From positions 1,426,001 to 1,490,000 of the forward strand of contig NZ_JBGCUO010000001.1 of the NCBI RefSeq assembly GCF_041102775.1: DNA of 64,000 nt. The letters run 5' to 3'. The notes beneath the pieces are model-generated. The model was not told the origin of the DNA. It saw only the letters and a program-made list of their open reading frames with translations, and searched no databases. The stretch is from Alcanivorax sp. REN37 (GTDB taxonomy: Bacteria; Pseudomonadota; Gammaproteobacteria; Pseudomonadales; Alcanivoracaceae). A program made the position numbers and the translations under genes. The number at the start of each line of letters is the position of its first letter. The first letter of the stretch is position 1. Of this stretch, positions 381 through 22,153 are shown piece after piece.

Positions 381-1686
<1,306 letters not shown>

Positions 1687-18582: not shown

Positions 18583-19839
18583 ATGGGGCCGAGCCAGTGG
18601 TGGTCCGGGCTGCGCTGGGGCCACACTAATCCCAGTAACCCGGATGCCGGTACCGCGTTGATTCTATCCGGTGGCGGCGCGCGCGCCGCTTATCAGGTGG
18701 GTGTACTGATGGCGGTAGCGAACCTGCTGCCGCGCGGTGCCCCCAATCCGTTCCCAGTGATTTGCGGTACCTCAGCCGGTGCCCTCAACGCCACGGCGCT
18801 GGCAGTCAATGCCCACCATTTCCGCTTTGCCGTCCGCGCCCTGGAGCGGGTCTGGCGCAACCTCACGCCAAGCCAGGTGTACCGCACTGACTTCCGCGCT
18901 TTTATTACTTCCATCCTGCGCTGGGCGCTGCCCGCTTATCTGACCGCCTCGACGCCGGTGCGCAGCGCGCTGCTGGATAACCGGCCGCTGTGCAAGCTGT
19001 TGTCCGTGGTGTTTGATTTCGACCGTATTCAACAGTCGCTGGATGCCGGCCATCTGCGTGCCCTGAGCATTACCGCATCGTCCTACGGCACCGGTGAATC
19101 GGTGGCGTTTTTCCAAGCGCTGGAAGAGGTGCAGGAGTGGCAGCGCGCTCGGCGGCGCGGGCAGCGTAGCCGCATCGGCTTAGAGCACCTGCTGGCGTCG
19201 TCAGCGATCCCGATCCTGTTTCCGGCGCAGAAAGTCGGGGGACGCTACTTCGGCGATGGGGCGGTACGGCAATTGGCGCCGATCAGCCCGGCGCTGCATC
19301 TCGGTGCCCAGCGGGTGCTGGTGGTCGGTGTGGCAGAAGCGCGGCCGGGTGGTCCGGATGACCGTGGCGCTCAGTACCCGTCCATGGCGCAGGTGCTTGG
19401 GCACGTGATGAACAGCGTGTTCGTCGACACGTTGGAAGTGGATTTGGAGCGCTTGCAGCGGATTAACAGCACGCTGGAAGTGATGACTCCCGCTCAGCGC
19501 AGCCGAGCCGGGATCGGTTTGCGACCGGTGGAGGTGCTGCACATCGCGCCGTCAGCGTCCATTGATGGCCTCGCCGCGGAGTACGCCCACCGTCTGCCGC
19601 GCACCTTGCGGGCACTGCTGCGTGGGCCTGGTGGCGGTGGCGCGGGGGCCTCCGCGCTCAGTTACCTGCTGTTTGACCCGGAGTTCTGCAAGGCACTAAT
19701 GGATCTTGGCTACAAAGATGCCATGGCCCGCAGCGATGAGCTGCGGGAGTTCCTGGCGCCGGCGCTGGAGGAGGTTAGTCGCCGCGTCGCTGCATGCGCG
19801 CCGCAAAATGGGCCGCAAAGCCACTGGCAAAATCGGTGA
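18583..19839 (+). CDS. patatin-like phospholipase
   Basis: A 418-residue patatin-domain protein. GGGARAAYQVG forms the oxyanion hole, GTSAG carries nucleophile Ser64, and GDGA carries Asp225 of the Ser-Asp dyad. The rest, including the C-terminal 120 residues, shows no further motif I recognise. Members hydrolyse acyl ester bonds of phospholipids; no signal peptide is visible, so a cytoplasmic or membrane-face role is likely. It starts 8 bases after nqrM but has no evident ribosome site. Its last 65 bases overlap the convergent glycerophosphodiester phosphodiesterase gene, an unusual amount. Confidence 0.85.
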   Translation: MGPSQWWSGLRWGHTNPSNPDAGTALILSGGGARAAYQVGVLMAVANLLPRGAPNPFPVICGTSAGALNATALAVNAHHFRFAVRALERVWRNLTPSQVYRTDFRAFITSILRWALPAYLTASTPVRSALLDNRPLCKLLSVVFDFDRIQQSLDAGHLRALSITASSYGTGESVAFFQALEEVQEWQRARRRGQRSRIGLEHLLASSAIPILFPAQKVGGRYFGDGAVRQLAPISPALHLGAQRVLVVGVAEARPGGPDDRGAQYPSMAQVLGHVMNSVFVDTLEVDLERLQRINSTLEVMTPAQRSRAGIGLRPVEVLHIAPSASIDGLAAEYAHRLPRTLRALLRGPGGGGAGASALSYLLFDPEFCKALMDLGYKDAMARSDELREFLAPALEEVSRRVAACAPQNGPQSHWQNR

Positions 19840-20536
19840 TCAGGCTGTCCACACCTAACCCTGCCAAGCGTTCTGCCTCTACTAGGTCATTCACCGTCCA
19901 GACCGAGACTCTCAGTCCGGCGTCACGGGCACGGCGCATCAGTCCTGCTTTCACAAGCGAGTAATGCGGAATCAGCCACTGGCAGCCCAACGCACGGGTG
20001 CGGCCTACCGGGTTAAACGAGCGTGCTTCGCACACCAGCCCCCGGCTTTGTCGTGGCGATACCTGCGCCATCAGCCGTAGGAACTGGCTGTCGCTGGAGG
20101 TAACAATAGTGCGCGCCGCCATACTGTGGCGCTGAATCAGGTCGGTCAGATTTTCTGCCACCCGAGATAGATAGGCGCTGGATTCGCCGCCTTTCACCTC
20201 AAACTGGAATTCGGTATCCGGATGGCACTGTGCCACGACTTGGTCCAGCGTTGGGATTTTCACGGGCACCGACCAGCCCGGTCCGCCTTGGCGGGCGTCC
20301 AACTGTTCGAGTGCGGCATATTCCAGATTGCGAACCAGCCCGGCAGCGCCAGTGGTGCGCTGCAGACTAGCGTCGTGCAGCACAACCAGTGTGCCGTCGC
20401 GGGTCAGCCTTACGTCCAACTCGATGGCCCGCAAGCCAGCATCCATAGCGATCTGGAAGCTGGGCAGGGTGTTCTCCGGGGCCTCGCCGCGGGCGCCGCG
20501 GTGGCCGACAAGATAGGGCAGGGCAGTGCGGTTCAT
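19775..20536 (-). CDS. glycerophosphodiester phosphodiesterase
   Basis: A 253-residue GDPD domain protein. LVGHRGARGEAPENTLPSF contains the first catalytic His and Glu, ELDVRLTRDGTLVVLHD the metal-binding Glu/Asp and second His, and FQFEVKGG a further acidic ligand. WTVNDL and VDSLITDFA end the barrel. It hydrolyses glycerophosphodiesters, such as glycerophosphocholine, to glycerol-3-phosphate and an alcohol. No signal peptide is seen, so it looks like the cytoplasmic UgpQ type. It faces the patatin gene tail to tail with a 65-base overlap. The two enzymes could act in sequence in phospholipid breakdown (inference). Confidence 0.92.
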   Translation of the reverse strand: MNRTALPYLVGHRGARGEAPENTLPSFQIAMDAGLRAIELDVRLTRDGTLVVLHDASLQRTTGAAGLVRNLEYAALEQLDARQGGPGWSVPVKIPTLDQVVAQCHPDTEFQFEVKGGESSAYLSRVAENLTDLIQRHSMAARTIVTSSDSQFLRLMAQVSPRQSRGLVCEARSFNPVGRTRALGCQWLIPHYSLVKAGLMRRARDAGLRVSVWTVNDLVEAERLAGLGVDSLITDFASGFAAHFAARMQRRGD

Positions 20537-20649
20537 GCGTGGTTTCCGACACGGGTGAAAGGGCGGGCAACACTATGGAACCGAACCCGGAACGGGTCCA
20601 GTGCCCTGCAAAGGGTGACAGTGCAGGATGACATTATTGAGGAGAGTGG

Positions 20650-20672
20650 AAAAAAACCCGCCGGGGGGCGGG
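20650..20672 (-). terminator. intrinsic terminator on the minus strand
   Basis: CCCGCC and GGCGGG pair around a four-base loop and are followed by seven T on the minus strand. It ends either the LysR transcript (290 bases upstream) or the candidate small RNA. Confidence 0.8.
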
Positions 20673-20750
20673 ACTGATGTAGCACACACCAAAATATCAG
20701 GAAACGCATAGAAATATGCGCGAGCGCTCGTCGTGACAACGAGCACTCGG
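20650..20750 (-). ncRNA. candidate small RNA or processed 3' UTR
   Basis: Read on the minus strand, a -10-like TAATAT (20761-20756) is followed by a hairpin at 20749-20721 (GCTCGT/ACGAGC core, flanked by CGAG/CTCG). Directly after it comes a perfect hairpin at 20720-20705 (CGCATA-TTTC-TATGCG), then a 32-base single-stranded, U-rich linker. A strong intrinsic terminator ends the run (CCCGCC, CCCC loop, GGCGGG, seven T). Total length is about 100 bases, typical of a trans-acting regulatory RNA. The -35 is weak (TTCAAA with 16-base spacing). It could instead be the 3' end of the upstream LysR transcript. No known RNA family is recognised. Confidence 0.42.
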
Positions 20751-20939
20751 GTCCAATATTAGTCATCTTTTGCAGAATTTGAAAGTGAAGGCTACGAAAA
20801 GCTGTGTTTCAAGATATACACTTTTCTCGATTTGTGATTCTGGTCAAGCGTCGTGCTGTTGCACGCCGAGCGATACGCATTCTCTTTCAATAATGTCCCA
20901 TTGTTCAATGGCTTGGATCCGGGGGCGCAATCGGTTGCC

Positions 20940-21830
20940 TCAAGCGGTAAGAATATTTTCTTCGATGAAATCCACAAAACTGCGTGTCTTGGCCGGCAGG
21001 TTTTTGCGGCTGCCGTAGATCACATAGAAGTCCATGTTCGGCACCGTATAACCCTCTAGGAGTGTCACCAGACGACCGTTGTGGAGTTCTGCTTGGACAT
21101 CCCATTCGCTCTTGATGGCGATGCCATAACCGCTCAAAACCCAATTGCGCAGCGTTTCGCTGTTGTCGGTCACCAAACTGCCGGAGACGCGCACCATTTC
21201 ACGATGGTTGGGCCCCACCAACGGCCACAGATCACGGAAGGAGCCGGCGGTATCAAGAATCAAACAGTCGTGTTTCTTGAGGTCAGCCGGCTTACGGATC
21301 GGTGGTCGGTTGGCCAAGTACTCCGGTGAGGCACACACGTAGCAGCGGTTCTTCATCAACCGCTTGGCAATCATGGTGGAGTCGGACGGCTGCCCGATGG
21401 TGATGGCCACGTCAAACCCTTCGCGGATGAAGTCCGTCTGATGGTCACCGAGGTACAGCTGGATCATCAGGTCTGGGTGGTAGGTGGCAAATTCGGCGAT
21501 TAGGGTAGCAATGCGGCTTTTTCCAAGTCCGCTGGTGGAGGCGATTTTTAGCGTGCCGCGGGCGTTATCGCCAGCATTGGAAACGGACGCCACGGCATCA
21601 TCGAGATCATCGAGGATCACCAGCAGCTTCTGGTACAGGGTTTTGCCTTCTTCGGTAAGGCTCATGGCGCGCGAGCTGCGGTTGACCAGTCGGACGCCAA
21701 TATCTTCTTCAAGTCGAGCCAGGCGTTTACTGATTGACGCTGGCGAAAGTCCCAAGCGGCGCGAGGCACCTGAAATGGTGCCTGCCTTGACCACACCCAC
21801 AAAAATGTTCAGGTCTGTTACCGAGTTCAT
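20940..21830 (-). CDS. LysR-family transcriptional regulator
   Basis: A 296-residue LysR regulator. The winged helix-turn-helix covers residues 1-60 (GTISGASRRLGLSPASISKRL), and a periplasmic-binding-like effector domain runs from about 90 to 290. Its form (SVTDLNIFVGVVKAGT and the signature in the recognition helix) is that of the CrgA/DmlR subgroup. The gene stands alone between the GDPD gene and an XRE gene, so no target is adjacent. A 13-base dyad 46 bases upstream of its start may be an autoregulatory site. The ligand is unknown. Confidence 0.9.
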   Translation of the reverse strand: MNSVTDLNIFVGVVKAGTISGASRRLGLSPASISKRLARLEEDIGVRLVNRSSRAMSLTEEGKTLYQKLLVILDDLDDAVASVSNAGDNARGTLKIASTSGLGKSRIATLIAEFATYHPDLMIQLYLGDHQTDFIREGFDVAITIGQPSDSTMIAKRLMKNRCYVCASPEYLANRPPIRKPADLKKHDCLILDTAGSFRDLWPLVGPNHREMVRVSGSLVTDNSETLRNWVLSGYGIAIKSEWDVQAELHNGRLVTLLEGYTVPNMDFYVIYGSRKNLPAKTRSFVDFIEENILTA

Positions 21831-22153
21831 CGCGTGCTTTTCCCATCCTGATGGAGAACGCTTTATTTTTTTCTAGACGTTGAACGTCAGAAGGGGACAG
21901 GCGGGTACATCCTTACCGCGCCAACTGCCGACCCACTCTGGAACCGACGTTCGTATATTAAAGCTATGATTTTATTCCTATTTTATATGCCATCCAGACA
22001 TGGCTGTAACACTATTACGCCTTTGCTTGGGCTTTGCCAAGTGCTGGCAGAATGCCATCACCCGGCCGCGTCAATGTGGGACGCAACCGGGCCGATGAGG
22101 ACAGCGCATTGGCACCTGCGGACGCAAGGTGGGGCCGAGGGCTAGTGCCGAGA
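21831..22153. other. 323-base intergenic region, AT-rich in part
   Basis: The stretch around 21945-21995 is clearly AT-richer than the neighbouring genes and could carry the LysR promoter. No gene or known RNA is seen. Confidence 0.4.
21876..21888. promoter_or_regulatory. dyad upstream of the LysR gene
   Basis: GACGTTGAACGTC is a palindrome with one central base, 46 bases upstream of the LysR start. It could be a regulator binding site. The assignment is only by position. Confidence 0.3.

Follow-up and report, generated by a model that had tools for sequence, protein, structure and literature searches.

RyhB, OmrA and CyaR are Hfq-dependent trans-acting small RNAs of Gammaproteobacteria, and an unpaired invariant segment near a terminator with a long U tail is the usual anatomy of an Hfq-dependent pairing RNA. 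The window, by which we mean the whole stretch of 64,000 nucleotides that was analysed, contains a candidate of this kind on the minus strand of the interval between a LysR-type gene (21830-20940, minus strand) and a GDPD gene (20536-19775, minus strand), about 190 nt past the LysR stop; both gene families were confirmed. With the Hfq-dependent class it shares a length of about 100 nt, an intergenic position, promoter-like elements, a conserved and predictedly single-stranded seed beside a U-tailed terminator, and the presence of hfq, which was found in all seven genomes of the genus (the window's own genome G000 of 3.02 Mb and six relatives, G001-G006). Unlike the RNAs named above, the candidate has no Rfam match above the gathering score, and matches below that score are of chance level only.

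A dRNA-seq study of Alcanivorax dieselolei B-5, a member of the same bacterial family, reported 549 small-RNA candidates, most of them confined to close species (PMC9788540). The main text of this study contains neither 'LysR' nor 'glycerophosph'. By comparison, full matches to the core of the present candidate occur in the seven genus genomes only, out of 46 family genomes that may not include A. dieselolei. No description of this RNA was found among the papers listed on Alcanivorax and Isoalcanivorax small RNAs, outside subscription journals and supplements. It is probably a new small RNA of a known kind, apparently restricted to its genus. If real, it would represent a small RNA family absent from Rfam and restricted, as far as searched, to one genus of marine hydrocarbon degraders, in which the 5′ half of the RNA turns over while a 54-nt unit of seed and terminator stays fixed; a palindrome common to the promoters would offer a direct handle on the regulator and the physiological role. 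Otherwise it would be one more lineage-specific small RNA on a long list.

In our preferred reading, to which we assign a probability of about 0.75, positions 20750-20650 of the minus strand form an independently transcribed candidate gene for a small regulatory RNA of this Alcanivorax-like genus. The elements considered are the following.

20796 to 20810, minus strand: degenerate copy GAAACACAGCTTTTC of the palindromic operator-like sequence GAAAAGCAGCTTTTC, aligned with the copies of the relatives
20779 to 20784, minus strand: weak -35-like TTTCAA at a distance of 17 nt from the -10; TTTTCA or a similar stretch stands close to this place in relatives
20756 to 20761, minus strand: -10-like hexamer TAATAT; at the same place TAATCT in G002, G004 and G005 and TACTCT in G001
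20650 to 20750, minus strand: proposed small RNA of about 100 nt, 5′ end placed from the -10 and 3′ end from the terminator; fold z -6.13
20721 to 20749, minus strand: 5′ hairpin 1, 13 pairs and a loop of 3; not found in the relatives
20705 to 20720, minus strand: 5′ hairpin 2, 6 pairs and a loop of 4; not found in the relatives
20650 to 20703, minus strand: 3′ core made up of seed, small hairpin and terminator; conserved in all seven genus genomes, where it precedes the GDPD gene
20692 to 20703, minus strand: TTCCTGATATTT, identical in seven of seven rows, putative seed
20674 to 20692, minus strand: small hairpin UUGGUG/CAUCAG (UUGAUG/CAUCAG in relatives), from the window fold and the consensus fold
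20650 to 20672, minus strand: intrinsic terminator with stem CCCGCC-CCCC-GGCGGG (20672-20657, six G-C pairs) and seven T (20656-20650; seven or eight in relatives); stem and loop invariant in the seven genomes
20572 to 20577, minus strand: CATAGT behind the terminator, likely the -10 of a separate GDPD promoter; aligned in all seven genomes (TAAAGT in G002)

The hexamer TAATAT, the hairpins at 20749-20721 and 20720-20705, the linker behind them and the terminator with seven T had all been named by a sequence-only reading of this DNA, and each was verified at its coordinates. The linker had been described as U-rich and single-stranded, but it contains an overlooked third small hairpin (about 20692-20674), whose pairing also appears in the relatives. 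The stretch 20751-20650 folds at -44.4 kcal/mol, compared with a mean of -25.3 kcal/mol (sd 3.1) for shuffled sequences, none of 200 being as good. A chance palindrome was ruled out by these shuffles and by the conservation of the core. Of TTCCTGATATTT, the first 9 bases in the consensus fold and the first 11 in the window fold are predicted to be unpaired; in a longer fold of 110 nt, which starts a few bases earlier, part of the linker and seed pairs with upstream sequence.

When the region was searched against 57 genomes, of which one is the window's own and 56 are relatives, the 3′ part turned up in two further genomes of the genus, and direct reading of the spacers upstream of the GDPD gene revealed the core in all seven. 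This core of 54-56 nt, composed of the invariant UUCCUGAUAUUU, the small hairpin and the terminator, lies between the LysR and GDPD genes in every genus genome. It reads TTCCTGATATTTGATGnnnnATTGCATCAGACCCGCCCCCCGGCGGGC followed by seven or eight T in the six relatives and TTCCTGATATTTTGGTGTGTGCTACATCAGTCCCGCCCCCCGGCGGG followed by seven T in the window. In six pairs from four genomes, of the 21 pairs possible among the seven, core identity over alignment columns was 77-96%, compared with 58-79% for the GDPD gene, 65-76% for the LysR gene and 22-52% for the flanking spacers. The core was highest in each pair, its margin over a neighbouring gene being just one point in the pair G000-G006 (77 vs 76). 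Because the core exceeds both neighbouring genes while both spacers stay at 22-52%, these alignments provide good evidence that selection acts on it.

The two 5′ hairpins behave differently from the core. In none of the six relatives was a counterpart of either seen. In the window, the 59 nt that precede the core have a z of -4.9; in G004 and G005 they form a different stem-loop with a z of about -2, and the other four relatives show weak or no excess structure (z about -1.3 to +0.2). The sequence-only reading had held that loss of the hairpin arms beside conserved flanking genes would speak against a small RNA, and this is the situation for hairpins 1 and 2, but not for the 3′ core. Its emphasis on the two hairpins was therefore misplaced, since nothing like them occurs in the relatives; a small RNA nevertheless is the best reading, as linker, third hairpin and terminator are kept. 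A 5′ stem may still serve stability. Hairpin 1 was also considered as a repeat element and rejected: the window holds no other copy, and one site with three mismatches lies elsewhere in the genome.

As to the origin of the transcript, the palindrome GAAAAGCAGCTTTTC is perfect in G002, G004 and G005, has one change in G001 and two mismatches in the window. In these five of the seven genomes it lies exactly 34 nt upstream of the -10-like hexamer (TAATAT, TAATCT or TACTCT). Among five near-matches in the window, this copy is the sole one with two mismatches, the others having three. A consensus promoter scan reported no minus-strand promoter at this position, the -35 being poor, and a scan of 19500-22000 found one terminator-like site, where shuffles of the region average 2.7. 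Because the scan misses the promoter and the terminator count is below the shuffle mean, both elements rest on conservation. The promoter model covers five of seven genomes, since G003 and G006 have no such palindrome before the core. A palindrome was observed in these two genomes at another place, around positions 1501-1515 of the extracted loci (L126 from G006, L127 from G003) and about 500 bp upstream of the LysR gene, which may mark a second regulated unit there.

The sequence-only reading had itself named a competitor, in which the feature belongs to the LysR message as its 3′ untranslated end, perhaps processed; RNase E could in that case release it as a small RNA derived from the 3′ UTR. 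We consider this unlikely, although it is the best placed of the alternatives: in each of the seven genomes the feature follows the LysR gene on the strand of that gene, and in the window no other terminator-like site stands between that gene and the RNA. It is weakened by a terminator-like hairpin with a T run, located after the LysR gene and before the small-RNA promoter in G001 and G002, by the long distance between LysR gene and core in G006 (about 0.9 kb with just short unnamed frames) and G003 (about 1 kb), and by the promoter-like elements kept right before the RNA in five of seven genomes.

A clearly less probable possibility is that the feature acts in cis on the GDPD gene, as an attenuator-bearing 5′ leader. 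The core does precede this gene on a common strand in every case, with 88-188 nt between the end of the core and the aligned GDPD start. However, both this distance and the sequence of the interval vary freely (22-43% identity), and each of the seven genomes has, behind the terminator, a -10-like block (CATAGT or TAAAGT) that is likely the GDPD promoter. The spacing of palindrome and promoter, the hairpins behind the LysR gene, the distance between LysR gene and core and the GDPD block thus favour an independent RNA gene over both a 3′ UTR and a GDPD leader, and the candidate small RNA is probably a transcript of its own.

Consensus folding of the seven genomes yielded the small hairpin and the terminator. 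Between TTCCTGATATTT and the terminator stem, the six relatives differ only in the hairpin loop, while seed, stem arms and terminator stem are invariant. The hairpin arm of the window differs, yet it remains paired: one A-U has become G-U, and the helix has moved by one base. This shift was scored as broken pairs because the alignment gives the window row no gap. Compensatory changes, to which the sequence-only reading had looked for confirmation, are absent from the core: none of 13 pairs changed on both sides in the seven-genome alignment, and a shuffle control on covariation gave no support (500 of 500 shuffles equal). A control in which the pairing partners were slid favoured the core structure, with 95.6% of cells paired vs 29-47% after sliding. 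According to these predictions the secondary structure of the core is plausible.

A covariance model was built from the seven genus cores and run on 46 family genomes (seven of the genus and 39 others). By construction, it recovered one full-scoring copy per genus genome (61-92 bits). The best match outside the genus reached 32.7 bits, and among the matches listed for the 46 genomes nothing besides the core copies exceeded 33.2 bits. With the stricter filters applied above 40 genomes, some match at E ≤0.1 was listed in at least 43 of the 46. The matches listed for the other 39 family genomes were weak and of the terminator type; 23 loci inspected outside the genus were terminators without the seed, as was a 33-bit match in G001. 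Among the matches listed for 244 genomes of the order, G000, G003 and a weak match at a porin terminator in G008 passed E 1e-6; in the rows shown 22 candidates per genome were scored, and two of the seven genus members were listed. A pattern scan of a contig collection of 84,980 species matched four genus members and one contig labelled Kuenenia, which was rejected as a chance match with no T run behind it. The silence of this collection is incomplete, because G000, G005 and G006 gave no match there. A plasmid search gave no match.

The 23 inspected loci would also fit the view that the feature is just a well-kept terminator and the rest chance. This is very improbable, because the invariant 12-nt segment and the hairpin upstream of the terminator are kept as well and the core identity exceeds that of neighbouring coding DNA.

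Known Rfam families were likewise rejected: there were no matches in the window above the gathering cut-off and none above threshold in four relatives. The sole sub-threshold match of the window interval (E ≤10) was the Betaproteobacteria toxic small RNA (RF02278), which covers the core with 14.7 bits and E 2.2. Its gathering score is 50, it is absent from the matches up to E 5 in the four relatives, and it is thus at chance level. These relatives gave two sub-threshold matches at E up to 5. The Tryptophan operon leader (RF00513) matched the G002 core with 21.1 bits and E 2.3, mainly on the terminator; with a gathering score of 41 and no such match in the window or the other three relatives tested, it is also at chance level.

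A similar stretch was noticed in two other genera of the Alcanivoracaceae. In the loci L073 (about 1501-1556, minus strand) and L091 (about 1501-1552, plus strand), porin-like frames are closely followed by GCTTTTCCTCGACGC and then a CCCGCC/GGCGGG terminator. This stretch is possibly a small RNA derived from a porin 3′ UTR.

Concerning coding potential, the sequence-only reading had stated that no protein-coding frame explains the feature. A frame of 77 codons with an ATG start (20766-20533, minus strand) does cross it and also overlaps the GDPD start, but its start is not conserved. Read from the seed, this frame, which in the window has the ATG and the 77 codons, stays open across the core in each of the seven genomes; in G004 it begins with a GTG and continues into the GDPD frame. 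In G005, G006 and G003 neither ATG nor GTG nor TTG precedes the core in this frame, and a TTG within the core is its only start codon. The remaining two frames are interrupted within the core in each of the six relatives; in the window one of the two is open (GTG, 57 codons) and spans the core. No conserved coding frame across the core was found in the seven genomes. That the core encodes a small protein is barely credible, despite the frame open in all seven, because an upstream start is missing in three genomes, the other two frames are closed in the relatives, frame start, length and end vary between genomes, and the changes in the hairpin loop fall mostly on first and second codon positions.

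For the small-RNA gene, the following course of events is proposed. Transcription would start near 20750 from a regulated promoter with the operator-like palindrome at 20810-20796 and the -10 at 20761-20756, and would stop at the terminator at 20650. The species-variable 5′ stem-loop would protect the RNA, and the poly-U tail together with the terminator would bind Hfq. The invariant, predictedly single-stranded UUCCUGAUAUUU could then pair with ribosome-binding sites of the AGGA type and lower translation of the targets; UUCCU is complementary to AGGA ribosome-binding sites. From its anatomy, we infer that the feature is likely an Hfq-type pairing RNA.

Targets were searched with two site patterns, the second of which was examined in the places of the window genome. 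The 9-base complement ATATCAGGA followed by ATG occurs at 22 places in the genus, none of them in G000. Those that begin long frames (L102, L103, L112, L118 and, with 122 codons, L101) are each found in one genome only, and the single frame common to two genomes (L110, L115) has 57 codons; this pattern marks no long gene start common to genomes. The 8-base ATCAGGAA followed by ATG was found at 24 places in G000, five of which begin frames of more than 100 codons (L169, L173, L182, L183 and L191). L169, encoding a periplasmic binding protein (Peripla_BP_2), and L182, of the LysR type, were taken as real gene starts. L173 presumably lies inside a DNA polymerase gene, and L183 and L191 were judged unlikely to be real starts. 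The duplex at L169 was the best found (-25.6 kcal/mol) but is unexceptional, with 18 of 499 mechanically chosen background start sites as good, and no ortholog of L169 was detected in the other six genomes at E 0.001. At L182 the complement is partly kept, in G005 only, among the five of six orthologs that were read (the G002 ortholog not being among them). Neither site pattern yielded a conserved target.

The pattern GAAARGCAGCTTTTC occurs at 14 sites in the seven genomes, and a reversed control gave none. Four of the 14 are the small-RNA promoter; this number does not include the window's copy, which has two mismatches. The remaining ten comprise four sites with a TAnnnT hexamer at 34 nt (L123, L125, L130, L135), one with AATAAT (L124) and five with no hexamer (L126, L127, L133, L134, L136); the 34-nt spacing was spotted by eye at the small RNA and the other genes jointly, so that the sites were counted post hoc and the sample is small, some sites being the same gene in two species. 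At L123 (positions 1501-1515; contig C1 of G000, 1176635-1176649) the palindrome stands 34 nt before TAACCT, upstream of a gene for an AupA-like FadL/TodX outer-membrane protein that may take up alkanes. The product scores 538 bits against the NCBIfam alkane-uptake protein AupA, which is less than the equivalog cut-off (840), and 42 bits against Pfam Toluene_X/FadL, which is above the cut-off. The products of L124, L125 and L130 had no family match in Pfam or NCBIfam, and that of L133 matched a transporter model below threshold only. L136, where the palindrome lacks the 34-nt spacing, encodes an MMPL-type transporter above the Pfam cut-off.

These sites tie the small-RNA promoter loosely to the uptake of hydrophobic substrates, as a lead only. 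Speculatively, and with low probability, the RNA could be the RNA arm of an undescribed regulon in this alkane-degrading genus. A regulator that binds TTATGAAAAGCAGCTTTTCATAA-like palindromes at the fixed distance of 34 nt from the -10 would govern the RNA together with other genes, among which is the AupA-like FadL transporter gene of the window's genome, the RNA lowering translation of other envelope or uptake proteins on hydrophobic substrates.

Two of the sites were also compared with each other. At L125 (1536-2816, G002) and L135 (1536-2750, G001), open frames of 426 and 404 codons, respectively, lie behind a palindrome that has the 34-nt spacing, and by eye these frames look alike.
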